A stretch of 64,000 bases of DNA, from the NCBI RefSeq assembly GCF_027943255.1, contig NC_072897.1, positions 56,320,406-56,384,405 on the forward strand, written 5' to 3'. Source of the stretch: Anastrepha obliqua (lineage: Eukaryota > Arthropoda > Insecta > Diptera > Tephritidae). This document shows positions 14,649 through 59,339 of this stretch, in pieces. Every line of letters begins with the position of its first letter. Position 1 is the stretch's first letter. The position numbers and the translations under genes were made by a program. Below the pieces are notes generated by a model, which had not been told where the DNA came from, did not search any database, and worked only from the letters and a program-made list of their open reading frames with translations.

Positions 14649-14852
14649 TAATAAAAGCGGTCTTTCTCGTTTTAAGTCTACTTGAGCAATGACAATTCGC
14701 TTTATTCATAGAATTCATATTAACGTATGCTTTATGTTACTAAAGCAGGTATGTTATTATTACATGTTTCCTTATTCTAGTATTTTCCAACATATGCTAC
14801 TGAAGCAGGTATGTTATTATTACATGTTTGCTTATTCTAGTATATTTCAACA
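14649..14852 (-). repeat. copia 3' LTR
   Basis: It is 204 bp long; on the minus strand it begins TGTTGAAATATACTAG and ends GCTTTTATTA. It contains an internal near-duplication: the string GGTATGTTATTATTACATGT occurs twice, about 61 bp apart, each followed by a TATTCTAGTAT-like string. Confidence 0.92.
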
Positions 14853-15009
14853 CTTCCCCTGAATGAGCAACCACATAATCCAAAAACAAGAAATTACTTT
14901 TCAATAGTTACTTTGAATGAACAATCATAAACTAAATATAAGTTTGCAAGTCACTAGAATTCAAGGTATTAAAAAAAACATAGCAAAAATTTACACATCA
15001 TACATAAAT

Positions 15010-16524
15010 TCAATTTACTCCAAGACTTTTTACTAAATTTTCATGTTTTACAATAACAAGAGATTTCGTCAGGATATCAGCAAACATTTCATTTGTAGGA
15101 CAATAAATAAGTTTTACATCCCCACTTTTAATCTTTTCTTTTACAAATTTGCATTTTATGTCTACATGTTTTGTCCTATTAGAATATGCGTTATTACTTG
15201 CTACATGAATAGCACTTTTGTTGTCACTATATAAAATCATCGTCTTAGATACTCTTCTGGATAACTCTGCTTCTAATCGCTTAAGCCAAAGTGATTCCTA
15301 AATCGCAGCAACAATTGACATGTACTCGGCTTCTGTAGATGATAGTGCAATAGTCTTCTGCCGCTTTGTAGCCTATGAAATTGCCCCATTCTGACACAAA
15401 AAAACATAACCCGTGGTAGATCTTCTATCATCAACATTGCTCGCCCAATCAGCATCGCAGTATCCAGTAAGCGCGTCTCCATTTTTCTTATATACGATAC
15501 CTTTATTTATAGTGCCCTTTACGTAACGTAGCACTCGCTTAACAGCTTCCCAGTGTACTTTACCAGGATTCTGACTGAATCTGCTTAACATATTTACAGC
15601 GAAACAAATATCAGGTCTGGTAACCTGAGCTATGAAAAGTAATGCACCAACTGCTTCCATGTACGGTACATTCGCCATATATTTTTTCTCGACATCATCT
15701 TTTGCACACATATCCAGTGGTAACTTTTGATTCGGGTCAGCAGGAGTTTTTACTGGATTACAATCGAGCATACGAAATCGTCTCAGAATATTTTCAATAT
15801 ACTGCGATTGGTCGATTTTTATGTCACCATTCACTTTATTTCTCGTTACACGCATGCCCAAAACTGATGATACTTCGCCAATGCCTTTCATCTTAAAGCC
15901 CTTCTTTAACTTTGCTTTAGTTTTGTTTAGCATTCGCACATCATTTGTAAATAATAACACATCATCAACGTATATTGCAACGATCATTATTTGACTCTCC
16001 TCTATTCTGAAATATATACATTGATCAACGTCGCTTCTTGTAAGTCCAATATCAACTAAGACATTATTAAGAGTTTCGTTCCATATTCTGCTTGATTGTT
16101 TGAGACCATAAATTGATTTCAAGAGTCTACATACCTTGCGAGTACCGTCTTCAAACTTACATGGTTGTACCATATAGACCTCTTCTTCAAGTTTTCCGTT
16201 TAAAAATGCGGTGACAGCATCCATTTGGTGTATCATCAACCCATAGTTCGCAGCTAAAGCTAGTAGGAAACGAATCGATGTGTACCTGACTACCGGTGAA
16301 AACGTTTCTTCATAGTCAATGTCCTTCTTTTGACTATAACCTTTGGCGACTAATCTGGCTTTGCGGCATACCACTTCACCATCAGCATTTATTTTTGTCT
16401 TGAAAACCCATTTGGATGAAATTGCCTTTTTGCCGGCTGGCAAATCCGTTAATTCAAATGTTTTATTTAACAATAAGGAATCATACTCTTTCCTCATTGC
16501 TAGTTTCCACTCGTCAGCATGCAC
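15010..16524 (-). pseudogene. copia reverse transcriptase and RNase H, with premature stops
   Basis: The RT domain spans 15373-16524 (SKWVFKTKINADGEVVCRKA, MDAVTAFLNGKLEEEVYM and the catalytic YVDDVLLF). RNase H follows (GYCDADWASNVDDRRSTTGY near the end, then SSTEAEYMSIVAA and LYSDNKSAIHVASNNAYS at 15010-15330). Two in-frame stops interrupt it: TAG where ISW is expected, near 15373, and TAG in place of a Gln codon, near 15300. This enzyme pair makes the cDNA. The last ORF ends ADILTKSL, the usual copia C-terminus. Confidence 0.9.
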
Positions 16525-17639
16525 AGATGATAATGCTGCTCCGGAGTATCAGGATCTTCAGTAATTTCCATTTCTTCAACATCACATGCAAAATTCGCTT
16601 GTTTATTTCTGGTGGAACATCGAAGTTCTAATTCTGCTATGGTGACATCTTCTTCAGGAGTATACGTAATATCATTCGCATCATCATAATCACTGATTTC
16701 ATTATCAGTCTTCGTTTCATCTGACTCATTTTCAGCTTCAATTTCTTCTATATTATCTTCATCCTCGTCCACTTCTATAATTGACAATTCTAAGTCTTCT
16801 TCCCTTCCTGAATTGTCTATTTTGTTTTCATTTATAACAACATTTGGGAATGATGAAGCATTTTTTTCTTTATTCAAACACCCTTTCTCATTTTCGAAAA
16901 AAATAACATTTCGGCTTATTATTATTTTACTCGTTGCTATGTCAAGTAAACGATATGCTTTTGATTCTTGACTATAACCCAACATTATACATTCAATCGA
17001 TTTAGCATCTAATTTCAATCTTTTCTCCTTAGGCACGTGAACCATCGCCTTGCAGCAAAATACTTTAAGATACTTCAAATTTGGCTTTCGTTTTGTCCAA
17101 ATTTCTTCAGGACTTTTATTATTTTTTCTACATGGGATACGATTTAACAAATACGCAGCAGTATCAACTGCCTCTGCCCAAAAACTTTTATTTAACCCAG
17201 CATCAAATAGCATACAACGAACTTTTTCAGAAATAGTGCGATTCATTCGCTCAGCTACTCCGTTTTGTTCTGGTGTGTATGGAGAAGTCTTTTGATGAAG
17301 AATACCGTGCTGAGACATATATTTTTGAAACATATTGTTCACGTATTCTTTCCCATTGTTAGTTCTTAGCATTTTGATTTGTTTACCAGTTTGTTTTTCA
17401 GCCAAATTCTTGAATTTTAAAAATTGATCAAATATTTCTGACTTTTTCTTAATTGGGAACGCGAAAATTTTCCGCGTATAGTCATCGATGAAAGTTAACA
17501 AATATCGTGCACCCGAGTACGATTCAACTTCCAATGGTCCCATTACATCCGAGTGAATAAGCTCCAATAATTCACTAGCGCGATGACCACTTTTAGGGAA
17601 CGCAAACGCGTTTGTTTCCCTTTTACACATACAATGCAT
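16500..17639 (-). pseudogene. copia integrase core with a lost catalytic aspartate
   Basis: LELIHSDVMGPLEVES holds the first catalytic aspartate. TFIDDYTRKIFAFPIKKKSE follows. The second catalytic site reads MLRTNNGKEY where the family has 'R.DNG.EY', so aspartate is replaced by asparagine. The glutamate region (TSPYTPEQNGVAERMNRTI) is intact. The C-terminal part has PSEEIW-like and VPKEKRLKLDAKSIECIML strings, then a long acidic linker to RT. The Asp-to-Asn change alone should abolish strand transfer. The frame shifts into the RT frame at 16500-16524. Confidence 0.88.
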
Positions 17640-18412
17640 TTCTTATCGGTGATGTTTTTTACATTTTCTAAGCCTTTCGACGAATTTTTAACTGCAATTA
17701 AGTTTTCACGGCTTATATGGCCTAACCTTCTATGCCACAGTGCAAAGTCATCAATATATTTACATAGCATTGTACTTTCTTGGTTAATTTTACAATTTAA
17801 TTGATATAAGCCATTAACCAAATTCGCGTTTGCTATCAATTTATTTTCGTCGTAAAAAATCTTGCACACATCATTTTCGAACAATACTTTATTTCCTCTC
17901 TTTGCCATTTCACTCACTGACAATAGGTTTGCACAAATATTTGGTACATAATCTATATTATGTATAGTGACGTTGTTTTTGTTAGGCATAATCACATTAG
18001 CGGTACCTGTGTATTCAACTTTCAATTTGCCATTGTTTGCAAGTGAAATTTCTTTATCGCTCTTTCGCATATTAACTAATATGTTTTTGTTATTAGTTAA
18101 ATGCACAGATGCGCCTGAGTCAATGTACCAATTACTGTTTGTATTTGAACGGTACTTTTCATTGTCTGCAAAGAGAGATGCAAGAAATCCGCTACCATTA
18201 GTATTGTTGTTCTTGTTAGTACTTACGTGCGTTTTTTTATTTGGACAGTTACGACTTATGTGACCAAATAAATTACAAGAATAACAGCGAATCTTTTTCT
18301 TGTTGTTGGTTTTTTTCACATGCATTACATTATTTTCCGTATGCATGTCAAATTTAATATCTTGTAACATCAAATTTTTAACGACGTCGACGCTCAGCTG
18401 CATTTTGGAATT
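17543..18412 (-). pseudogene. copia gag zinc knuckle, protease and integrase N-terminus
   Basis: In order: a CCHC zinc knuckle (CYSCNLFGHISRNC) near residue 40; the aspartic protease active site (NWYIDSGASVHLTNNK) near residue 92; and the pre-integrase HHCC zinc finger (LWHRRLGHISRENL followed by CIVCVKGKQ). The frame is lost just after the zinc finger near 17600. These parts mature gag-pol and help integrase bind DNA ends. Apart from the frame shifts at both ends, the motifs are intact. Confidence 0.9.
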
Positions 18413-18895
18413 TTATACAGCTAAAACAAGCGCCCTATATTCATTTGGCAATCCAGCCAACATTAATGATGCGACAATTTCGTCACCTATCTGCAACCCA
18501 GCATTATTCACCTTCAATGCCGTCATTACCATTGCGTTGATATAATTCTGCGTAGACTCGAAATCCTCCAACTTTATGTGAACAAGTTGTTTCAGCAATT
18601 CCACTTTTCTCGTCAACCCGGTATCCTCATAAGCAGCAACCAAAGCATCCCACGCTTCCTTTGCAGTTGTTGCTGTTGCAATATGGGAAAAATTGCACGA
18701 TTCGATCATCATGGTGATCTCCGCCAAAGCTTGCTGATCCCTTTCAATCTCCGCTGCCGTCGCATTGGCACCTAGACTTTGTTCGACCGGCTTCCAGCAC
18801 TTCTTGATGATTAAATAAGATTTCGCCAGCCGCTTCCAGGTGTCGAAATTTTCTCGACCACGCAGCTTTTCAAAAACTAAAGCTGGTGAAACCAT
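18413..18895 (-). pseudogene. copia gag, N-terminal part
   Basis: From MVSPALVFEKLRGRENFDTW the frame encodes a copia-type capsid (UBN2-like). Landmarks are YLIIKKCWKPVEQSL, TTAKEAWDALVAAYEDTGL and ESTQNYINAMVMTALKVNNA. Gag packages element RNA into virus-like particles. It ends at a stop after RALVLAV, where a one-base shift moves the rest of gag to the next frame. Otherwise it is undamaged, which fits the low LTR divergence. Confidence 0.85.
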
Positions 18896-19010
18896 TTTAT
18901 TTAATTTCGTTGCCAAGAGATTAAAAAAAAACAAAACGCACAAGACTCTAATAAAAGTATTATTAACTTAAAAACGCTTATTTTTTCCGTGTATAATTTT
19001 CGCGTGTCAA

Positions 19011-19023
19011 GTCGCCCATAACC
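19011..19023 (-). promoter_or_regulatory. copia primer binding site (initiator tRNA-Met half-molecule type)
   Basis: Directly inside the 5' LTR the minus strand reads GGTTATGGGCGAC. Drosophila copia has GGTTATGGGCCC at this place, complementary to an internal part of the initiator tRNA-Met. This supports a true copia lineage rather than a generic Ty1/copia element. Confidence 0.75.
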
Positions 19024-19227
19024 TAATAAAAGCGGTCTTTCTCGTTTTAAGTCTACTTGAGCAATGACAATTCGCTTTATTCATAGAGTTCATATTAACG
19101 TATGCTTTATGTTACTAAAGCAGCTATGTTATTATTACATGTTTCCTTATTCTAGTATTTTCCAACATATGCTACTAAAGCAGGTATGTTATTATTACAT
19201 GTTTGCTTATTCTAGTATATTTCAACA
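19024..19227 (-). repeat. copia 5' LTR
   Basis: It is 204 bp long and identical to the 3' LTR except at three positions (GAGTTCAT versus GAATTCAT, GCAGCTATG versus GCAGGTATG, ACTAAAGC versus ACTGAAGC). It carries the same internal duplication. The target duplication GTAAT follows at 19228. Confidence 0.92.
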
Positions 19228-20602: not shown

Positions 20603-21445
20603 TCCGTTAACTTTGCTCTTGAAATGCATGCATCTATGTTTCAAGCGGAGGTGTATGTTGTTCAAGAAGCTATGAACTTTGTTGTGGGAAAGAGATGGGG
20701 AGGCAGATCTATATGTGTCTGCAGCGACAACCAAGCAGCGCTCATGGCCCTAGACAGCCCCCCAACCACATCAGGGGTAGTCGAGTCCCGTAAATCCAGG
20801 CTGAACTATGCCGGTAGACATAATAGTCTAATGCTAACATGGGTCGCGGGACATGTGGTTATCGTGGGTAACGAGACCTCTGACTCCTTAGCTAGGATGG
20901 GCTCTGAGAGCAACTTCTTTGGCCCAGAGCCCGTTTTGCCACTCCCTTCTGCATCCATCAAAGTCACGGTTAGCAAATGGGTTACTACAACCCACAAGCG
21001 AGCTTGGCAGGCTGAGAGAGGCTGCAGATGGACTAAACTGATGTTACCTGTCACTTCCGATCGACTGTCATAGATCCTCCTGTCATTAAGCAGAAGGGAG
21101 TGCAGACAGCTGGTTGGACTGATGACGGGTCACTTTCTGTGGGCGAAGTACATGGAAAGGTTGGGCATCTCAGACAGTGTACTCTGCCCAGCTTGTGAAG
21201 AGGAGGATGAAACGGCGGACCACTTCCTGTGCGTCTGCCCCGTCTTCAAGTTAAAGGTATTTGGCACTGATGTGATAAGAAGCGACCACCTTGGCTCCCT
21301 CGCACCACAATATCTACTCAGATTTCTTCAGAGGTCGAGTAGATTTAAAGAAAATTAAAATGGAATCCAGGTGTAGTACAATGGACCTAGATAATGTCTG
21401 AGTGGCGTACTTGCTAGTTGTCCCGACAAAAGAAAAAAAAAGTGC
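20603..21445 (+). mobile_element. LOA-like LINE, 5'-truncated copy: RNase H and 3' end
   Basis: The plus-strand frame carries ALEMHASMFQAEVYVVQEAM, CVCSDNQAALMALDSPPTT (RNase H), WVAGHVVIVGNETSDSLARM and a C-terminal cysteine cluster (CPACEEEDETADHFLCVC). It then has the 3' UTR and an A-rich end (CCCGACAAAAGAAAAAAAAA). The sequence closely matches the larger element at 33945-37920 (opposite strand), including the 3' terminus, so both belong to one family. A stop separates the two halves of the C-terminal region. Severe 5' truncation is typical of LINE insertions. Confidence 0.85.
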
Positions 21446-29671: not shown

Positions 29672-30973
29672 TTACAAAAAGCTGCGTAACATCTCATTGC
29701 GAATTTGAGTAGCCTCAGTTGTGTACCGTTGGGTTTGTATAGGTTCGCCTACATATTCATCACTTTCTTCAACCCCATCTAAATATTCGTCGGAAATCTT
29801 GTAATGAATGCGGATGTTATGAAGTGCAGCTGCGACGTTGACAATTTGCGCCACTTTTTCTGGAGCATAGTGTAGTTGGCGAGCAGAGAGCAAACATCGA
29901 CACCAATTCTTCCAGACCCCTATTGTCCTTTCAACAATGTTGCGGCCCTTGCTATGGCTTTTATTAAACCGACTTTCTGGCGTATTTGCTCGAGTGTTAC
30001 GAAAGGGTGTTATCAACCAGGGTAAAAGTGGATATCCGGAGTCTCCTATGTAAAATATTGCGAAGTAAACTATATTATTTTTTTTATTATTTGGTGTATA
30101 TTTACCCAACAATCTCGTGCTTCTTTCTCCACTTTCATACAAGGCTTGAAAATAAGTCGAAGCATCACTATTTTCCCAAACAAAAGAATCGCGGCTTGCA
30201 CCTGCGTACCTACTGTTTACATACTTTATTCGCTGATTATGGTCACATATCTTAAGCCGCACAATAGATTAGTGAACTAATTTAGTCTGACTTTAACAAT
30301 TAACTTACTATCATTGCATTTATACTATAATATCCTTTTCTATTATATTAAAGGTGCGCATTCTCTCCAGTGGGTTTTAAAATTTTTATATGGGTACCGT
30401 CTACACACATAATTATTCCCGGAATGGTCGTTTTTTCAAAAAAATATTTTTTGGCCTCTAGCTTTTCACTGTCCGTCGTTTTGATTTACTTTTATTCGTC
30501 ATGACTAGGCTTATCCAGGACATAATGTAGCCTCTAAGATATTTAAAACATCTGAAAGTACTGTAGAAATTGTTGACTGCGCCATTCCTATGTTAAAATC
30601 TTGTCCAGTACCATTTTGATAGCCCCCTTCGGCTAAAAACCTTAAGCATGCTTCAAGCTTAAGCTTTGGTTATATCGACCATGACCTTCGAACGGGAGCA
30701 TTTTTCAATATGTTCAAAATATATTCAAAGGCTGCTTTATTAAACCGAAACTGTTTTAAAACCCTTCAAAAGGAGCTCACATTATCGTAACTCTACGTAC
30801 ATATACCGCAACGAAAAGTTTACACATCATCAGGCAACCGGAGTACATCATCAGCAGTATCCCTAACTTCTTGGCGGCTTCGCCTTAAATTACCTCTTGT
30901 ATTTTCACCAAAATCCAGGTAAAAGAATATAGTATCCATATTTTGCGCTAAACAAAAATTTATTTGTGCTTTG
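29672..30973 (-). pseudogene. Harbinger H2 transposase, degenerate
   Basis: The first coding exon starts at about 30938 (MDTIFFYLDFGENTRGNLRR). Stops and shifts then interrupt a helix-turn-helix region (FNIGMAQSTISTVLSDVLNI) and the first aspartate motif near 30390 (VDGTHIKILKPTGENA-like, in broken frame). The best-preserved part (29672-30262) has CDHNQRIKYVNSRYAGASRD, then an intron splitting LLGK from GDSGYPLLPWLITPF (second aspartate). KGRNIVERTIGVWKNWCRCL carries the catalytic glutamate, and DEYLDGVEESDEYVGEP the acidic tail. The C-terminal half is intact and the N-terminal half is dead. Confidence 0.8.
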
Positions 30974-31352: not shown

Positions 31353-31693
31353 GAAAGGAGTTCTATGCAAAAATACTGTGGATTGCGTAGCCGGAGTTGG
31401 ACTGGTGAGGGTTATCTTTTTAAAGCGCGGCCGAAGGCCGCCCACGCGAAAATTAGTTCTATGCAAAAATACTGTGGATTGCGTAGCCGGAGTTGGACTG
31501 GTGAGAGTTATTTTTTTAAAGCGCGGCCGAAGGCCGCCCACGCGAAAACGAGTTCTACGCAAAAATACTGTGGATTGCGTAGCCGGAGTTGGATTGGTGA
31601 GGTTTATTTTTTTAAAGCGCGGCCGAAGGCCGCCCACGCAAAAAGGAGTTCTACGCAAAAATACTGAAGGCCGCCCACGCGAAAAGAAGTTCT
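31353..31693. repeat. 96-bp minisatellite, three full units plus a shortened one
   Basis: TTCTATGCAAAAATACTGTGG starts units at 31361, 31457, 31553 and 31649, exactly 96 bp apart. A final unit begins at 31690 after only 41 bp. Each unit contains GCGGCCGAAGGCCGC, a perfect hairpin, followed by CCACGCGAAAA. Because 96 is divisible by three and no stop falls in several frames, long repetitive frames appear on both strands. They are a by-product of the repeat, not a gene. The GC-rich core contrasts with the AT-rich surroundings. Flanks at 31118-31352 and 31694-32097 show nothing else. Confidence 0.9.
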
Positions 31694-33640: not shown

Positions 33641-33944
33641 ACGAAACTTCAGATAACACTGCCTTCCGCTTAAATCTGATCGTCTCGGTTATACACCGAA
33701 TCTTTCGATCCAAATGGAGCCAATCTTGTTGTATACGAAAACCCACATCATTAAATCTTTCAATCACCTTGTATGGACCTTCCCGGGACACTTGTATTTT
33801 TGGAGAAGTCCTTTTCTTTCTTTGCGGATTTTAAAGAAGTACCAAACTATCTTCGCTGACTTCCTCGGAGTTCACAGCACGGTCAAATATGTCCCTCATC
33901 TTCTTACTCTTTGGCTGGGTACACTGCTTCCTGTTTTTTTGCTT
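33640..33944 (-). pseudogene. Gypsy pol C-terminal fragment (integrase end)
   Basis: The minus strand reads SLVLL-NPQRKKRTSPKIQ, then VSREGPYKVIERFNDVGFRI and, after a frame break, strings ending RFKRKAVLSEVS. This is the post-core domain of a gypsy-type integrase, in which 'LW.YNP.R..G.SPKL...WEGPY.V..R.NDV.YRIQ' is conserved. No LTR is recognisable on either side. It is truncated at its 5' side by the 3' end of the LOA-like LINE. Confidence 0.75.
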
Positions 33945-34321
33945 TTTTTTTCTTTTTTTGTCGGGACAAAAAACAAGTACAGCACTCAGACATTAATTAA
34001 GTCCATTGTACTACACTTGGATTCCATTTTAATTTCCTGTAAACCTACCCGATCTCCGAAGAAATCTGAGTACATCTAGTGGTGCCAAAGAGCCAAAGTG
34101 GTCGCTTCTTAACACATCATGCCAAAGACCTCAAACCTAATGCGAGCGAAGGCGGGGCAGACGCATAGGAAGTGGTCCGCCGTTTCATCTTCCTCTTCAC
34201 AAGCTGGGCAGAGTACACTGTCTGAGATGCCCACCTTTTCCATGTGCTTCGCCCGCAGAAAGTGGCCCGTCATCCGTCCAACCAGCTGTCTGCACTCCCT
34301 TCTGCTTAATGGCAGGAGGAT

Positions 34322-34880
34322 TTACGACAGTCGATCGGAAATGACAGGTAACATCAGTTTAGTCCATCTGCAGCCTCTCTCAGCCTGCCAAGCTCGCTTG
34401 TGGGTTGTAGTAACCCATTTGCTAACCGTGATTTTGATGGATGCAGAAGGGAGTGGCAAAACGGGCTCTGAGGCCAACTTCTTTGGCCCAGGGCCCATCC
34501 TAGCTAAGGAGTCAGAGGTCTGGTTACCCACGATAACCACATGTCCCGGGACCCATATTAGCATCAGGCTATTACGTCTTCCGACATAGTTCAGCCTGAA
34601 TTTATAGCACTCGACTACCTCTGATGTAGTTGGGGGGCTCTCTAAGGCCATGAGCGCAGCTTGGTTGTCGCTGCAGACACATATAGATCTGCCTCTCCAT
34701 CGGTTTTCCACAACAAAGTTCATCGCTCCTTGAACTGCATACACCTCCGCTTAAAACACAGGTGCATGCATTCCAAGAGCAAAGTGCAGTTTTGCCATGC
34801 TGGATTCCACGTAGACCCTAGAGCCGGAGCCATGCTCGGTCCTGGAGCCATCCGTGAAAATGCGAAAACAGTGTTTGCCG
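34322..34880 (-). pseudogene. LOA-like LINE RNase H and C-terminal cysteine cluster
   Basis: FRIFTDGSRTEHGSGSRVYV (first acidic box, near 34830-34870), ICVCSDNQAALMALESPPTT (second) and WVPGHVVIVGNQTSDSLARM (third) define RNase H. A stop near 34753 separates the first box from the rest. The C-terminus continues to the cysteine cluster at about 34190-34230 (CPACEEEDETADHFLCV on the minus strand), matching the copy at 20603-21445. Confidence 0.85.
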
Positions 34881-49051: not shown

Positions 49052-50267
49052 TTAAGCTGATAATAAATTGGTTAATTGATCTCGTTTTGATCTACCATCC
49101 AACTCTTCGATGTCTGCTCGGGATTCCGTACTTGTATCTTCTAATATATCAGGAAGATCCGAAGTGGTAAAACTTTCGTTATTTATAATGATGTTATGGA
49201 GTATCATACATGAAATTATAATATTTTTTACAAGCTTGATGTTGCGAATTTCAATGAAATTCAGTATACGGAACTTTTTCTTTAAAATTCCAAACGCTTG
49301 TTCCACGCAGACTCTTGTACTACTTAAAATAGTATTAAATCTTTGTTGTCCCTCACTTAAAAAGCCGGTATCTTTATATGGTACCATAAGAAATCTCTCC
49401 AGTGGATAAGCTGCATCTCCCAGCAAATGGCACTCAGGAGGAAAGGGAATATCTCCGTTTATTATTGCTTGACGTAAAGGGCTGCTTTGCCACACGGAAG
49501 CGTCGTGACACCTCCCAGGATATCCAGCAAAAACGTCGATAAAACGCAATTCGCTATCCACAACAGCTTGCGCTATTACTGAAAATGTGCCTTTTCTATT
49601 ATAAAAACTGATGCTGCTTTGCGTTGGTTGGGTGATTTTGATGTGTGTCCCATCTACGCATCCTAGGACAAACGGAAATGGGTTGCTGCGCATTGCCTGA
49701 AATTTTTCCATAACAATCCGACGCTCTGATGCGGTCAAGGGAAATTTTATGATACGACTTTTTAGTTTTAATAAGATTTTAATCGTTTTGAAAAATACCC
49801 GATAAGTAGCACCAATACCAACGTTAAATATATTACTTAATTCACGGAAACTATTTTGATTTCCTAATCTCCAAAGCGTAATATGCAATGCTAGCTTCAA
49901 TGGTATATTGGGACGTCCTGCATTTTTTGCCGGCCAAAAGGGTTGTACTATTTCGCAAAGAGTCTGAAATATAAAATATTAATATAAAACTACGTTAATA
50001 TTTATTATTTATGTATACTACCTGGAATGTTTGTATTTGCATCCTGAAATGGCTATAAAAGACATCGTTGGGCATTTCTTCAATGCACTCGAGAAACTTT
50101 TTGCATTTTGGAATATTTCTCGCGATTCTCTGCGTCTTCCACAAGTGAAAAATCAATTTGTGTCTTTTTCTCATCTTTTTTGCAATAAGTAAATCACTAC
50201 TGGATTGATTTTCACTAAATAACTCAGCGAAAGAGCAAATTGCTAATTTTTTCACCGTCACATCCAT
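49052..50267 (-). CDS. Harbinger H3 DDE transposase, intact
   Basis: Exon 1 is 50267-50022 (start MDVTVKKLAICSFAELFSEN) and exon 2 is 49963-49052, with a GTAGTA..TTTCAG intron that keeps the frame (MQIQTFQ joined to TLCEIVQPFWP). Domains in order: a helical N-terminus; a helix-turn-helix (FRELSNIFNVGIGATYRVFF); and DDE_Tnp_4 with FVLGCVDGTHIKITQPTQ (Asp), CHLLGDAAYPLERFLMVPYK (Asp) and VCVEQAFGILKKKFRILNFI (Glu). The acidic C-terminus is DILEDTSTESRADIEELDGR. No stop or shift occurs. An upstream in-frame ATG near 50381 lies by the terminal repeat and is less likely the start. Confidence 0.87.
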
Positions 50268-50538: not shown

Positions 50539-51792
50539 CAGGGTTGGCCATATTAAACTGACCCATTGAGTAACCCTATAACTTTTTACTGTAATTTCAG
50601 ATCAGCTAATGACATACCGCGTTGGAAGCGTCAGTCGAAGGAGATTTATACCATGAAACAGTACACCCCAATAGAACGCGCTGAAATTGTTCAGCTGTAC
50701 ATTCAAAATTCCTTCTCGATTGTAAAAACGCAACGTGCGTGGAGAAAAAAAAAATAAAGTGAAAAGTGCGCCGTCAAAGAACGCAATCAAGCAAATGCAC
50801 AAAAGATTTTTGTCTTCCGGCACTGTGGCTAATACCCGACGTCCAAATAAAAAGCGGCCAAGACGATCTAACGAAAATATCTCAGTTGGACATCCCTCGG
50901 ACCACTCTACGACGTATCATTCGTTTGGATTTGGGGATATTCCCGTACAAAATACAACTAAATCAACAACTGTTGCCGGCCGACAAGCCTCGTCGCTTGG
51001 AATATGCCAATTTTGTCGTCCGAATGGCCCAAACTGATGAGGATTTTTGGCATCAAATCATTATGAGTGATGAGGCCCATTTCTCCTTGAACGGAACCGT
51101 AAATAAGCAAAATTGCCGTTTCTACGCCACTGAAAACCCTCAAATTATTGAAGAGGTACCTCTCCACGACCAAAAAGTTACAGTCTGGTGTGGCATTTGC
51201 GCTGATATGGTCATTGGGCCGTTCTTCTTTGAAAATGGTCAACACCAACCATTCACCGTCAATCAAGAGCGTTATCGGGCCATGATAACCGATTTTGTGA
51301 TGCCGATTGTTCGTGAAAATGGTATGGAGCACTTCTGGTTTCAGCAAGATGGCGCACCACCACACACAGCACGAGCCACCGTCAACTTATTGAAGACTTT
51401 GTTCCCTGGCCGTTTGATATCAAAAAGCGGCGATTTTGACTGGCCGCCACGATCACCGGATTTGACGCCACCGGACTTTTTTCTTTGGGGCTATTTGAAA
51501 TCTAAGGTTTACGTCAACAAAGACACTAGGCGCACTTAAGGCCAATATCCGACGGGAAATACCCGCCATATCGGCCGAGACGCTGGCCAAAACTATGGAA
51601 AACGCCGAAAAACGGGCACATTACGCTATACGAGCTAAGGGCGACCACTTGCGCGATATCATATTCAAAAAGTGATGTAAACGAATCTCCTTGAACTAAA
51701 TTAAATGTTTTTCACAATGAAATACAAAAAAATGTTTCTTTTTCCATATTTTTTTAATAATCACATGGGTCAGTTTAATATGGCCAACCCTG
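50539..51792 (+). mobile_element. Tc1/mariner-type element, complete ends, broken transposase
   Basis: The first and last 28 bp are perfect inverted repeats beginning CAGGGTTGGCCATATTAAAC, and TA stands on both sides (50537-50538 and 51793-51794), the target duplication of this superfamily. The length is 1254 bp. The only gene is a transposase with two frame shifts. It is inserted in what looks like an intron of the host gene on the minus strand. The perfect ends suggest a young insertion. Confidence 0.92.
50654..51676 (+). pseudogene. Transposase of the mariner-type element, two frame shifts
   Basis: It starts MKQYTPIERAEIVQLYIQNS (helix-turn-helix). The frame slips in an A run at 50745-50756, and the long frame (50766-51539) holds WHQIIMSDEAHFSLNG (Asp 1), WFQQDGAPPHTARATVNLLK (Asp 2) and WPPRSPDLTPPDFFLWGYLK (Asp 3, about 36 residues after Asp 2). 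A second slip near 51530 leads to GALKANIRREIPAISAETLA and the end AKGDHLRDIIFKK at 51676. All three catalytic aspartates are intact. Both slips are at or next to homopolymers or repeats, so recent decay (or base-call errors) is possible. Confidence 0.88.
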
Positions 51793-52751: not shown

Positions 52752-54410
52752 CCAGTGGCGTAGATAGGGGGGGAAAGGGGATCAATTCGACCCATGAGAC
52801 ATTGAAACTAAAATTTTTGAAAAATTGTACTTATACATGTATATGCGTCCATTTCTCGAAATGCCTTCAACCTTTTTGCAGTATGACATCATTTAAACCA
52901 CTTTAAAATTAGAAAGAAAACATCTTTTTATAATAGTTTTGCAATTGAACAGAATGGAATTCCCGCGCCTAAACGGGCTTACCAATTGAAAGGCATGAAA
53001 TGGCGCTGTCATCGATAAGGACGTATTGAAGTTCGATAATCGAACATAGAGTCAATATTGCGGATTTATAACCTATTCCATAATCACGTTTGCATTGTTA
53101 TTTGTTTATCATCTCATGATGAAAAGATTTTTAGTGGCAAGAACACCCTTTGCTAAGAATAGCGAAAATGAAGAAAATGCAGAATTATCTGCTGAAACGA
53201 TTGCGAAGAAACTTCGTTGTGAAGCGTCAGGTAGTGAAAATATAGTCGAAGAAAATTCTCTCGATGAAAGTGGAGAGAGTGTTGAACATTGCATACCCCT
53301 AAAAGAAAAGCCATTTTGGAAAACACGATTGAAGAATCTGATGAAACTCCACGAACGAAATCTTTGAAAAGATTGAATCTGACTCGATGGGTTTCGAAAT
53401 ATGAAGCCGTCAACGACTTTTTTGAGTTATTCTCGTTTGTTTACGAAAGTCTAGATGCAATGAGAACCTCGGAAAAAGACGCCAAAAATCTGAAAAAACC
53501 ATGGATTTCGAATTTTTAAAATGTTTACATATTATCAATGTAATTTTTCAACTTTCGTTGCCTTTGAGTCGTGAATTGCAAAAGGTTAATTTAGATTTGG
53601 TCCAAGCCATGGATCTCGCCAAAGATTTGCGCGAGGAAGTAAAAAAGATTCTCGCAAAAGAAGACGCTTTTTCTGCAATTTACGAAGCTTCGAAAAAAAT
53701 TTCTGAAAATCTTGACATTGAGATCAAACAGAAAAGAATAGCGCGCAGACAAAATTATCGAGCAAATCCTGAAGTTCAAAGCACGGAAGATTATTTTCGT
53801 GTGACAGCGTTCAATCCTTTTCTAGATTTTTACATCATGGATCTTGGAGAAAGATTTACCAAACATGAAAATATATTAGAAGGATTTTCGGTCCTATTCA
53901 AGCATGATTTTCACGAAATCGACAAAGTAGCTAATAAATTCATCAAAACAGTCGAGTTTTACCAGGGGCCACACGCTGTTCTTGTCGAATTAAAAGTGTG
54001 GAAGAGATATTTAATTCGTAAAGGCGATATCAAACCTGGAAACTCATTGGATGCACTTGATCATTGTCCAGAAGAAAATTTTCCGAATATCAATGTGTTG
54101 CTAAGGATATTAGCTACTTTACCAGTATCAACATCTACTGCGGAACGCACTTTCTCTAGTTTGAAACGGATAAAGAAGATTTTGAGAAACACGACAAAAG
54201 AAGTAAGTTTCTTTAAGATCTTAATCTTTTCTCTAAGATCTATAAATTTTATTACAAAATTAGACATTTATTTTTGTCTCTTTTTTTATTGTAGGATCGC
54301 TTGAACGGATTGACTGCTCTAGCTATTCATCATGATATTCCAATCACAGCTGATGAAGTCATAGATGAGTTATCGAAAAAATCCCGAAAACGTGATTTTC
54401 TTCTTTAAAT
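52752..54410 (+). mobile_element. hAT transposon remnant (ZMYM1-like transposase)
   Basis: CAGTGGCGTAGATAGGGGGG at 52752 is a typical hAT-type left end. The gene starts MKRFLVARTPFAKNSENEEN near 53119. Frames then give TRWVSKYEAVNDFFELFSFV, SLPLSRELQKVNLDLVQAMD and RRQNYRANPEVQSTEDYFRV. The C-terminal dimerisation domain reads LATLPVSTSTAERTFSSLKR, then, after a GTAAGT..TTGTAG intron, RLNGLTALAIHHDIPITADE and stop at 54408. The middle catalytic part has been deleted and one or two shifts occur. No right terminal repeat was found. The class is clear; the copy is dead. Confidence 0.8.
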
Positions 54411-54871: not shown

Positions 54872-55346
54872 AAAGCATGGTTTTAAGAAAACGTGTTTCA
54901 AAGTTTTCAGAAGGTAGACAGTATACTCACACGAGGGACGGTACACAGGCCTGTAACTCCGAAATCACTTTGAATTCCGCTATAAAAAAAAAACGATTTT
55001 TTGAAGCCGACTGCCAAGTGGAGCAGAAAACATAGTGATTGGCAAAAGTATACATACATATGTAAGCAATGCAGAAATCGCTCTGCAAAAATAAATTCAA
55101 GTGGCATGAGACCAAAGGGCAATGTAGAGAACTATTAAACAGCTAATTCTAGATGAATTAGAAATTAATTAGAAGAAAATCTAATTTAATTGCACAATTT
55201 TCGGCAATACTTTTCATTAGTACCACGATATATTTGAATGGAGGCCGGTGGGGGAAGCGCCACCCACCACGCCCATTAGAAAAAGCAAGGTCACACCATT
55301 ATAACTGTGCAAGTCCCAACCTCCTAGGAACCCTATAGAACCCCCA
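54872..55346. other. Non-coding flank left of Transib
   Basis: No gene is recognised. A GC-rich patch (GGAGGCCGGTGGGGGAAGCGC near 55240) lies in AT-rich DNA. The last five bases, CCCCA, are the Transib target duplication. Confidence 0.5.
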
Positions 55347-55929
55347 CACAGTGGTGCGAAACTGGAATTAACTATTCAAAACAGTCTACAGCACACATTT
55401 CTTGACCGATTTGCAATTTATTTTTTTTTGAATTGCTCAGGATAAAATTGCTAACAACTCTGTCGTTGCGGATTTTTAAAATATTTTGCTAATATTGAAA
55501 TATTTAAACAAATACATTTAAAAAACAAAACTTACAAACTTACAAAACTTACAAAATCTTTTAAAAATTAATTATTTTTATGAAACTTGGTATCCGGGGG
55601 TTTTCTGGGTCGCTGATTGCAAATATGATGTCAGATTGTCAAAATTCAAAATGGCGGATCCAATATGGCGGTCAAAATTTCTTATAGTTAATTATTGTTT
55701 ATGAAACTTGGTATCCGGGGGTTTTCGGGGTCGCTGATGACGAATCTGATATCATATTTGCAAAATTCAAAATGGCGGATTCAATATGGCGGAGAAATTT
55801 TTTAAAATTTTTTCGAATTTACTTAAAACTTGTAACTCGGGGGTTTTTGGGAACGCTGATTACAAATCCGATGTTAATATTCCTAAACTTGAAATGGTAA
55901 ATCTGATACGGTGAAAAGTTGGAAAACAG
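55347..55929. repeat. Transib left arm with three ~120-bp internal units
   Basis: After the terminus, three direct units each carry GAAACTTGGTATCCGGGGGT (or a variant), GGTCGCTGAT and AATTCAAAATGGCGGAT...TATGGCGG. The units start near 55578, 55698 and 55826. The whole arm is inverted at about 58790-59324. Confidence 0.85.
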
Positions 55930-56190
55930 GATAAAGGCGAGAAGAAAAGATCTCGAGTCAGTAAAGGTGAGAGGAAAAGTTCTCGAGTCAGTAAAGGTGA
56001 GAGGAAAAGTTCTCCAGCTAGTAAAGACAAGAGGAAGAGATCTCCAGCCAGTAAAGGCGAGAGACAAAGATCTCCAGCCAGTAAAGGCAAGAGGAAGAGA
56101 TCTCCAGCCAATAAAGGCAAGAGGAAGAAATCTCCAGCCAGTAAAGGCAAGGGGAGAAGATCTCTAGCCAGTAAAGGCAAGAGGTCTAGT
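55930..56190. repeat. 30-bp minisatellite, about nine copies, inner end of left Transib arm
   Basis: The unit is (G/A)TAAAGGCGAGAGGAAAAGATCTC(G/C)AG(T/C)CA, repeated about every 30 bp. Since 30 is divisible by three, open frames arise on both strands, but they are not genes. Confidence 0.9.
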
Positions 56191-56228
56191 AATAGTCTAA
56201 TAGTCTAGTAGATTTTAAAGACAAAGTT

Positions 56229-58191
56229 TTACATTCTCTTTGATTCAAATTGCTGTATAAGTTCTTCTATTTCGGGATCATTTGCTGCAGAATTGCTTCT
56301 CCATTCTTTTCTTAATGAGGCTATGTAAAGGTCTGAAGAAACTAAAAGTTTATGTATTAAGTCTTCATTTGTTATGGTTCGTAACATTTTACGAGTATTG
56401 AACTCCCTGAAACGTTTGAAATCCTTATTTCTGGCTTCAGCAGCCTCTTCTGAATATTTCCCTATAGGTAGTAAAAATTTCTCTATTACTTTACCACCAT
56501 GTATCAACACTTTATGAATAGAAGATGGCATATAGTACCAGGGATAGAGCTTTATGAACAACTCAGCTGTTTTGTAAGTATAGTCGTTAAAAAAGTCTGT
56601 TGGTACTTTTCTACTTACACTTAACATTTTTAAAATTATACTGAATCTATATATTAACTCTTTATCTACTTTTGTTATTTCTGATGTTAACTCAATATCC
56701 TGAAAAAATGTACGCGCAGTGTTGCCATCATTAGAAGATCCAGAACCATGTGCTGGCTGATCTATTATAAGCCCCATTTTTTCTCTAAACTCTTTACAAA
56801 TTTTTTGTTTAGTATTTCGAAGAAGCACTTTATGATCATCAGATCTTACACTCCACCGGCAAAAATCTAATCGATATGCTACATGCAAAATGCATTCCAT
56901 CATTCTTATCCACATGTGCAATACAGAAAGGCCAAATTCAAAAAAAACATTGGTTTTCTTCTTTGTTTGCGAGTCTGACTAAATTGTTCATTTCGGATGT
57001 TTTTGCTCCACAAATATAGCAAGTTGCTGCTGAAGGTGTATCTGTTAAAGCTTGGCAAACTTTACCATCCACCATAGTTAAAGCCATGTCTGCTTTAACT
57101 ATATAGGTGCCTTCAGATTTTTCAACTATTATTGGTTGCAATTCTCTAATTTGATTTTTAATGTCATCCACTTTCGACTGAGTCCTTTCCTTTGTTTCTT
57201 TCGCGAATTCAAAAGAAATTGGAACGCAACGTTTTGGTGACGATGGATGAGGATTTTGCCATACAATTTTTGAATTATCAGTTGTTTTTAAGCACAAAGG
57301 TACCATTGACTCTGCAAATATTGATTCATCTGAGGCATTTGATTCACTGAATTTTTGCTTATATATGCTTTGATCGGAAGAACCATCGCATCCATATTTT
57401 AAAATGAAATCTAAATTGCAAGTTTTATTTAATTCTTGAAAAGGTGGAAGGGATAAACTAGAATCCTTAAGAAGTCGAAGTACAGTATGATTTATTAGGG
57501 ACTGTAATTCAATACTTGCACCTAATTCCGTAATGAGTATGTTCGAAGGGTAACAACTCTTTTTTGCTTCAAGAATTTGATGGTATGTTGGAAAAATATT
57601 TGCATTTCGTTTCTTAGCCTGAAATTGTATTGATTCGTATTGATATTTTGAAAGTTTTGTGTCTTCGATTAAAGCTAACGCTTCTTCTGCCGAGAATTTA
57701 ATAAAATCTGTGCTATCATTTTGATCTTCAGTATTTTCTACTTTCATTAAAAAGACTATTTTTGTTGCTAATTTACTTCTTCCACTTTTTCTCAATATTC
57801 GCAAAAATGATTCTTGTATTTCTGATTCTGTATAAGACTCTTCAATCATTATTAATTTTCGTCTTTTTGTGGATGCAGAAGCTTTTTCAAAATTGTCAGT
57901 ACATTTTCTACCTGTTTTTGTTTTTGCTTTTGTAAAATCCACAATAAAATCAGTTTCTAACCATTTTTTTAATTTTTTTTCAAAACTACTTTTAACGTAC
58001 ATAGAATCTTTCCATTTCTTTTTAAATGTGCTGAAAAAAGACCTAGTCAAATCATTTTTTACAATTTCTAATTGTTTCGAATCCAGAACAAATTTAACTT
58101 CCAAATGATCAAGTAAATCTTGTATATCATTACTTTTATTTTCTATTAAAAAGTTACAAAGAACTGCCTTTGATACTTTGAAGTAGTCCAT
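56229..58191 (-). pseudogene. Transib transposase (RAG1-core-like) with a single T8 frame shift
   Basis: The first frame (58191-56938, 417 residues, MDYFKVSKAVLCNF) has the catalytic region FILKYGCDGSSDQSIYKQKF (Asp 269), VWQNPHPSSPKRCVPISFEF, MALTMVDGKVCQALTDTPSA (likely second Asp 375) and the zinc pair CYIC (391-394). The second frame (to 56229) has EFGLSVLHMWIRMMECILHV, KMGLIIDQPAHGSGSSNDGN, LYPWYYMPSSIHKVLIHG and AEARNKDFKRFREFNTRK, with the catalytic Glu equivalent to RAG1 E962. The two are separated only by a run of eight T (minus strand) near 56940, where seven would keep the frame. About 650 residues in all, the usual family length. Confidence 0.9.
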
Positions 58192-58621
58192 TGTAGCTTT
58201 TCAGACATTTACAAAATAATATAAATAATATGTCAAATAATTTTATAACAAAAGCACAGTTTTCAAAAATCTAAGATAATATATAGATTACAATTTACAA
58301 TAATCATAAAACAATCAGACCGACAACATTACTTACCAAATTTTAAAATCTTTGTAAAATGTCTCAACAGGTAAGCTATTGTACTTATAATATATAAGAT
58401 TGAACTCATATGTGAGAGAAGTTATGTTAAATGCTTAACACGCCATCTATGAGAAACTGACACTACTTTATTTTGTCGGTCGATAATACAGAAAATTTTT
58501 AAATTGACTTTTTTCGCTAGATAACTTTATTCTTGCTTTTTTAACACTAAACCAGTTTTTCTTTTATGTTCCTACGTAATAATATTTCCGATCTATTATT
58601 AGCAAGCTTATAGAGTAATAA

Positions 58622-58790
58622 CGTGGAGAGATTTTTTCCTCTTGCCTTTGCTGGCTGGAGATCTTTTCCCCTTGCCTTTACTGGCTGGAGATCTTTTCCT
58701 CTTGCCTTTACTGACTCGAGAACTTTTCCTCTCACCTTTACTGACTCGAGATCTTTTCTTATCGCCTTTACCCTGTTTTGCAACTTTTCA
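58622..58790. repeat. 30-bp minisatellite, about five copies, inner end of right Transib arm
   Basis: Same unit as 55930-56190 in inverted orientation (CTTTACTGGCTGGAGATCTT). The copy number differs between arms (about five versus nine), as expected for a slipping minisatellite. Confidence 0.9.
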
Positions 58791-59324
58791 CCGTATCAGA
58801 TTTACCATTTCAAGTTTAGGAATATTAACATCGGATTTGTAATCAACGATCCCAAAAACCCCCGAGTTACAAGTTTAAAGTAAATTCGAATAAATTTTAA
58901 AAAATTTCTCCGCCATTTTGAATTTTGCAAATATGATATCAGATTCGTCATCAGCGACCCCGAAAACTCCCGGATACCAAGTTTCATAAACAATAATTAA
59001 CTATAAGAAAATTTAGACCGCCATATTGGATCCGCCATTTTGAATTTTGACAATCTGACATCATATTTGCAATCAGCGACCCAGAAAACCCCCGGATACC
59101 AAGTTTCATAAAAATAATTAATTTTTAAAAGATTTTGTAAGTTTTGTTTTTTAAATGTATTTGTTTAAATATTTCAATATTAGCAAAATATTTTAAAAAT
59201 CCGCAACGACAGAGTTGTTAGCAATTTTATCCTGAGCAATTCAAAAAAAATAAATTGCAAATCGGTCAAGAAATGTGTGCTGTAGACTGTTTTGAATAGT
59301 AAATTCCAGTTTTGCACCACTGTG
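58790..59324. repeat. Transib right arm (inverse of 55347-55929)
   Basis: It reads, inverted, the same ATGGCGG-containing units and the same terminal segment (CACAGTGGTGC from 59324 inward). Differences are scattered single bases and a few short gaps, so the two arms have diverged slightly. Confidence 0.85.
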
Positions 59325-59339
59325 CCCCAGGAGAAGTTT

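Follow-up and report, generated by a model that had tools for sequence, protein, structure and literature searches.

Transib transposons form the lineage that is related to RAG1, the recombinase that shuffles antibody genes. Hztransib of Helicoverpa zea is 3518 bp long, its terminal inverted repeats (TIRs) are long and it is flanked by GCTCG, a 5-bp duplication (PMC1852546); the catalytic triad of its transposase, HzTransib, is D126, D225 and E436 (PMC6941560). The TIRs of the four elements that share the transib name in Drosophila, transib1-4, are 40-45 bp (PMC10299278). Symmetric ends are known among Transibs (PMC9435367, PMC8355894), and an equivalent of the nonamer-binding domain (NBD) of RAG1 has already been reported in them (PMC9435367). 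Here we describe a Transib element of 3978 bp, delimited by direct reading and by the pairing of its arms at positions 55347-59324 of a 64,000-nucleotide stretch of Anastrepha obliqua DNA (contig NC_072897.1, 56,320,406 to 56,384,405; hereafter the window, to which all coordinates refer). We consider it, with high confidence, a full-length copy of an autonomous-type cut-and-paste transposon, inserted once into a C-rich spot whose CCCCA was duplicated.

This element resembles Hztransib by homology over the whole transposase core, by the same three catalytic residues, by a 5-bp duplication and by long TIRs. It differs by the sequence duplicated (CCCCA instead of GCTCG), by its position in the tree of transposases and by a protein about 140 residues longer at the N-terminus, as judged from the start of the alignment and the numbering offset of 17; this extension comprises a helical domain and an NBD-like region. 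Within this famous family it is an ordinary element, whose N-terminus is longer than that of its solved relative and whose long arms bear repeats. Since an NBD equivalent was already reported in Transibs (PMC9435367), the element brings one more example and no new concept: a further complete Transib whose ends are clean, whose duplication is 5 bp and whose transposase exceeds HzTransib in length, and which offers a well-defined substrate for mapping N-terminal parts of the protein to parts of the ends.

Termini and repeat-bearing arms

Transibs are recognised by a 5-bp target-site duplication and by TIRs opening with a CAC... heptamer. The element is flanked by CCCCA on each side, an exact duplication for which the chance probability at fixed ends, given the composition of the flanks, is about 0.0017, and both its ends open with CACAGTG. 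The heptamer by itself is uninformative, because it occurs eight times on both strands of the window, the two element ends included; its weight comes from its place at both arm ends, adjoining the duplication. An earlier note on this DNA, made from the letters alone, had pointed out the duplication, the terminal heptamers and the long inverted arms, and all are where it placed them; on the other hand it called the element near-complete, while the element is complete.

The arms are 92.3% identical to each other (BLAST) and, outside a 30-bp minisatellite, show 9 mismatches over 552 aligned bases, besides 34 gap columns; an inverted pair of 0.7 kb cannot be attributed to chance. The ends are symmetric, since their outermost 82 bases pair at 98% with only 2 mismatches in the first 74. 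From outside inward, each arm consists of some 190-205 bp mostly unrepeated, about three tandem units of 121 bp and then the minisatellite, so that the tandem repeats form the inner portion of the inverted arms; on the left the minisatellite extends about 110 bp beyond the paired arm. The earlier note held full-length Transib copies with long internal minisatellite arms to be uncommon. Long arms are not new within the superfamily, because Hztransib has long TIRs (PMC1852546); the short TIRs of the four Drosophila transibs, against about 700 bp here, do go in the direction of the note (PMC10299278). For arms built of tandem repeats of this kind, a literature search of limited depth, in sources partly accessible, found no description in a Transib.

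Do the ends resemble the recombination signal sequences (RSS) of V(D)J recombination, as had been proposed? The heptamer does. The nonamer, ACAAAAACC, was found at a 12- or 23-bp spacer at neither end: its score was 3/9 and 2/9 at spacer 12 and 4/9 at spacer 23, the two ends being alike, and the best match at either end, 5/9, was reached in 91% of cases when the left end was shuffled 5000 times. The nonamer being no better than chance, the RSS resemblance is confined to the heptamer. Compared with the RAG1 recombinase and its RSS, the element shares the core fold, the catalytic residues, the CACAGTG heptamer and an NBD-like region, but it has no RAG2, no nonamer above chance, no 12/23 spacing, and its ends are symmetric.

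Table 1. Coordinates of the element's features in the window (residue numbers are those of the frame named)
Feature	Position	Strand	Remarks
Left target-site duplication CCCCA	55342..55346		direct reading
Left terminal heptamer CACAGTG	55347..55353	+
Left terminal inverted arm, 728 bp	55347..56074	+	pairs with 58628-59324
About three 121-bp tandem units, left arm	55552..55915	+	83% and 61% identity to first unit
30-bp minisatellite, 8.4 copies	55932..56184	+	left arm inner end and beyond
Transposase second frame, C-terminal third	56229..56978	-	open from 56978; catalytic Glu; TAA stop 56229-56231
Catalytic Glu, second-frame residue 181	56436..56438	-	aligned to HzTransib chain residue 419 (E436 published)
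HKVLIH pair, second-frame residues 155, 160	56499..56516	-	nearly invariant and invariant, respectively, in homologue alignment
Transposase first frame	56938..58191	-	Met at 58191 to stop 56938-56940 beside T8 run; both catalytic Asp
T8 run (A8 on plus strand)	56940..56947	-	likeliest shift site
CxxC pair, residues 392, 395	57010..57021	-	nearly invariant in homologue alignment
Catalytic Asp 2, first-frame residue 376	57067..57069	-	aligned to HzTransib chain residue 208 (D225 published)
Catalytic Asp 1, first-frame residue 270	57385..57387	-	aligned to HzTransib chain residue 109 (D126 published)
NBD-like region, residues 95-152	57739..57912	-	GRK + three helices
N-terminal helical domain, frame residues 2-86	57937..58191	-	conserved in homologues
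30-bp minisatellite, 4.8 copies	58628..58771	-	right arm inner end
Right terminal inverted arm, 697 bp	58628..59324	-	pairs with 55347-56074
Matching tandem units, right arm	58801..59136	-	106-nt stretches, 60% and 80% to reference
Right terminal heptamer CACAGTG	59318..59324	-	reverse complement
Right target-site duplication CCCCA	59325..59329		direct reading

Family placement and domains of the transposase

The transposase lies on the minus strand and takes about 655 codons across two overlapping frames. The first starts with MDYFKVSK, like its homologues (MDSFKVSK in P0001), and the motifs CDGSS, VDGKV and EARNKDFKRFR, on which the earlier note had rightly based a transposase of about 650 residues with one shift near a T8 run, are spread over the two. 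Both pieces match the sequence of the HzTransib structures (6pqn, 6pqr, 6pqx, 6pqy), the first at 2e-41 over residues 167-411 and the second at 3.6e-67 over residues 10-226, where the homology begins near 56951; the second piece also matches RAG1 chains, at best at 3.5e-4. A family profile built on the N-terminal piece and 43 homologues reaches HzTransib at 1.2e-193, BbRAG1L at 5e-17 and RAG1 chains at 7e-12 to 1.4e-9. Such a placement by hidden Markov model was the check that the earlier note had proposed for its Transib assignment, and it does not put the reading frame outside Transib/RAG1.

Some observations weigh against this reading of the element. Pfam's RAG1 model gives the second piece 22.8 bits, under its 25-bit cut-off, and does not match the first at E up to 1; no other copy of the element lies within the 64 kb of the window, where only two stretches of 26 and 29 nt are similar to it (E 0.005). 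The Pfam cut-off is passed by 3 of 5 homologues scanned (P0004, P0006, P0027). Altogether Transib membership, as had been claimed, is supported by sequence, predicted fold, catalytic residues, heptamer ends and the 5-bp duplication.

The first piece found 140 matches at E ≤ 1e-3 among 5.8 billion proteins; what we say of homologues covers the best 120 of these. Among the matches listed, the top identities are 56, 54 and 51%, and the named species are ants, Bradysia gnats, aphid kin, moths and beetles; most of the proteins listed lie on short contigs. In a rapidly built tree with 110 rows (the window protein, HzTransib and 108 of the 120), our protein groups with P0001-P0004 and with P0045 of Lasius niger, at a support of 99 by the Shimodaira-Hasegawa-like approximate likelihood ratio test (SH-aLRT). 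HzTransib, whose row has 37% of the columns filled, stands elsewhere, with Chilo P0108 at support 90; the deepest branches of the tree are weak (71). The nearest named relatives among the matches listed are Transib proteins of ants: P0045 and P0020 (Lasius niger), P0011 (Temnothorax nylanderi) and P0017 (Cardiocondyla obscurior). P0045 shares the clade and 58% identity over 42% of the query, and P0011 the length class (648 aa); but 42 to 59% of the aligned residues differ in these proteins, so that they do not belong to copies of the same family. As for the subgroups of Transibs, subgroup II is marked by the lack of the alpha11-alpha12 region, by a CTT2 tail and by TIRs either symmetric or asymmetric (PMC9435367); the features compared, namely symmetric TIRs and HzTransib homology, fit it.

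A precomputed Pfam family, PF26100, is attached to P0001, P0003, P0004 and others including P0045; a local Pfam scan of P0001, P0004, P0006 and P0027 did not report it. It probably lies in the transposase core, because P0045, which carries it, starts just before the first catalytic Asp.

The catalytic triad is complete, in the order found in RAG1 and Transib: the three HzTransib chain positions aligned to it (counted by hand from printed alignments) all differ from the published numbers by the same 17. It is nevertheless divided, the frame switch falling between D376 and the Glu, so that no single frame has all three residues. Next to the triad, the CxxC and HKVLIH pairs are presumably zinc ligands, by analogy with ZnC2 and ZnH2 of RAG1 respectively.

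An AlphaFold model shows an HzTransib-like core, a region like the RAG1 NBD and an N-terminal helical domain. For the latter (57937-58191) the model has no clear match in the PDB, and Pfam gives sub-threshold matches only (CARD, BTG). One might imagine that long-armed insect Transibs of this clade have a bipartite N-terminal module for DNA binding, made of the helical domain and then the NBD-like GR[K/P] three-helix domain, and that its targets are the repeated units in the arms. We regard this as an unlikely guess; if it were true, the lineage would be a living model for the origin of RAG1 nonamer binding before any RSS nonamer.

RAG1 homology and an NBD-like region would also suit a RAG-like (RAGL) transposon, which is defined by a pair of genes, RAG1L and RAG2L. 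The list of open reading frames gives no second gene or RAG2-like partner in the element, where the longest other frames, 114 aa, are in the repeat arms. A RAGL transposon is therefore extremely improbable, and the single gene is that of a Transib.

The frame shift and the state of the copy

The overlap of the two frames brackets the shift to about 56938-56978. The T8 run, to which the earlier note had assigned the interruption, is its likeliest place, being the only coding-strand T run of at least 7 inside the transposase gene, and the shift is indeed single: no further in-frame stop occurs across 655 codons, so that neutral substitution since the start of decay stays below about 2.6% (95%). 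As sequenced, the copy should be inactive, because the shift parts the Glu from both Asp.

A first frame that closes with a T run continuing into TGA, overlapped by a second frame, has the shape of some sites of programmed ribosomal frame shifting, which would here join the two frames. Against this, in 109 of the 120 listed homologues a single protein contains matches to both pieces, never at an odd distance, and all 16 rows chosen for a full alignment run straight through the region. The other 11 match the first piece alone, and 5 of them end near the shift (P0018, P0019, P0038, P0061, P0089), all on contigs shorter than 4 kb. On these alignments the shift is not conserved among homologues, and a conserved programmed shift appears very unlikely.

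The shift could instead be a base-call or assembly error in the A/T run, the true copy being intact and possibly active. The switch of frames at the sole long T run of the gene, the low bound on substitution and the conserved columns of the first piece, none of which is altered (0 of 50), go in this direction. On the other hand two A runs of the coding strand, of 7 and 8 bases (57964 and 57973), have kept the frame; real indels too favour T runs; and a Copia element (14649-19227) has suffered a stop and shifts without long homopolymers, so that real decay does occur in the region. We thus hold such an error to be quite conceivable, though somewhat doubtful.

We lean slightly towards a real mutation, the copy being then a dead remnant mobilised in trans only. 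The differences between the arms (9 mismatches over 552 aligned bases, besides the 34 gap columns) would agree with some decay, though arms need not match at insertion. The second piece deviates at 4 of 62 conserved columns: A22M, I33V, R90T and the first residue of the row, the latter not real. But such deviations number 0-5 in 16 other rows, a similar count, and the lesion is a single one. The earlier note left the choice between a very young copy and a base-call error; the lack of other stops fits its reading but does not choose between the two.

Proposed transposition and neighbouring elements

We infer binding, hairpin cleavage and joining for an intact sibling from HzTransib and RAG, in an element whose ends, duplication, arms, homology, catalytic residues and modelled fold are described above. 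A dimeric DDE transposase would bind the heptamer-bearing ends, with arm DNA contacts probably added by the NBD-like and N-terminal helical domains, and would nick adjoining CACAGTG. Hairpins would then be made on the flanking DNA, leaving blunt transposon ends that would be joined, 5 bp apart, to new DNA. As no protein with all three catalytic residues can be made from the copy as sequenced, it would move only with the transposase of an intact sibling, or by its own should the shift prove to be a base-call error.

The window is rich in mobile elements. The Copia element mentioned above is a long terminal repeat (LTR) retrotransposon on the minus strand, whose 204-bp LTR matches are 98.5% identical and whose gag-pol is broken by one stop and two frame changes, none at long homopolymers. 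Two inverted copies of about 846 bp (20610-21442 and 33942-34785) share 89% identity and have frames that by eye look like RNase H parts of a long interspersed nuclear element (LINE). Among the transposase frames at 49052-49978, 29672-30268 and 53426-54304, two have a DDE_Tnp_4 domain, which we take to be Harbinger-like, and one a hAT dimerisation domain. A 258-aa frame at 50763-51539 resembles by eye a transposase of mariner/Tc1 type but gives no Pfam match with E up to 1e-3. Lastly, 31354-31666 is a tandem array, open in more than one frame, whose units measure about 96 bp and share 93-95% identity.
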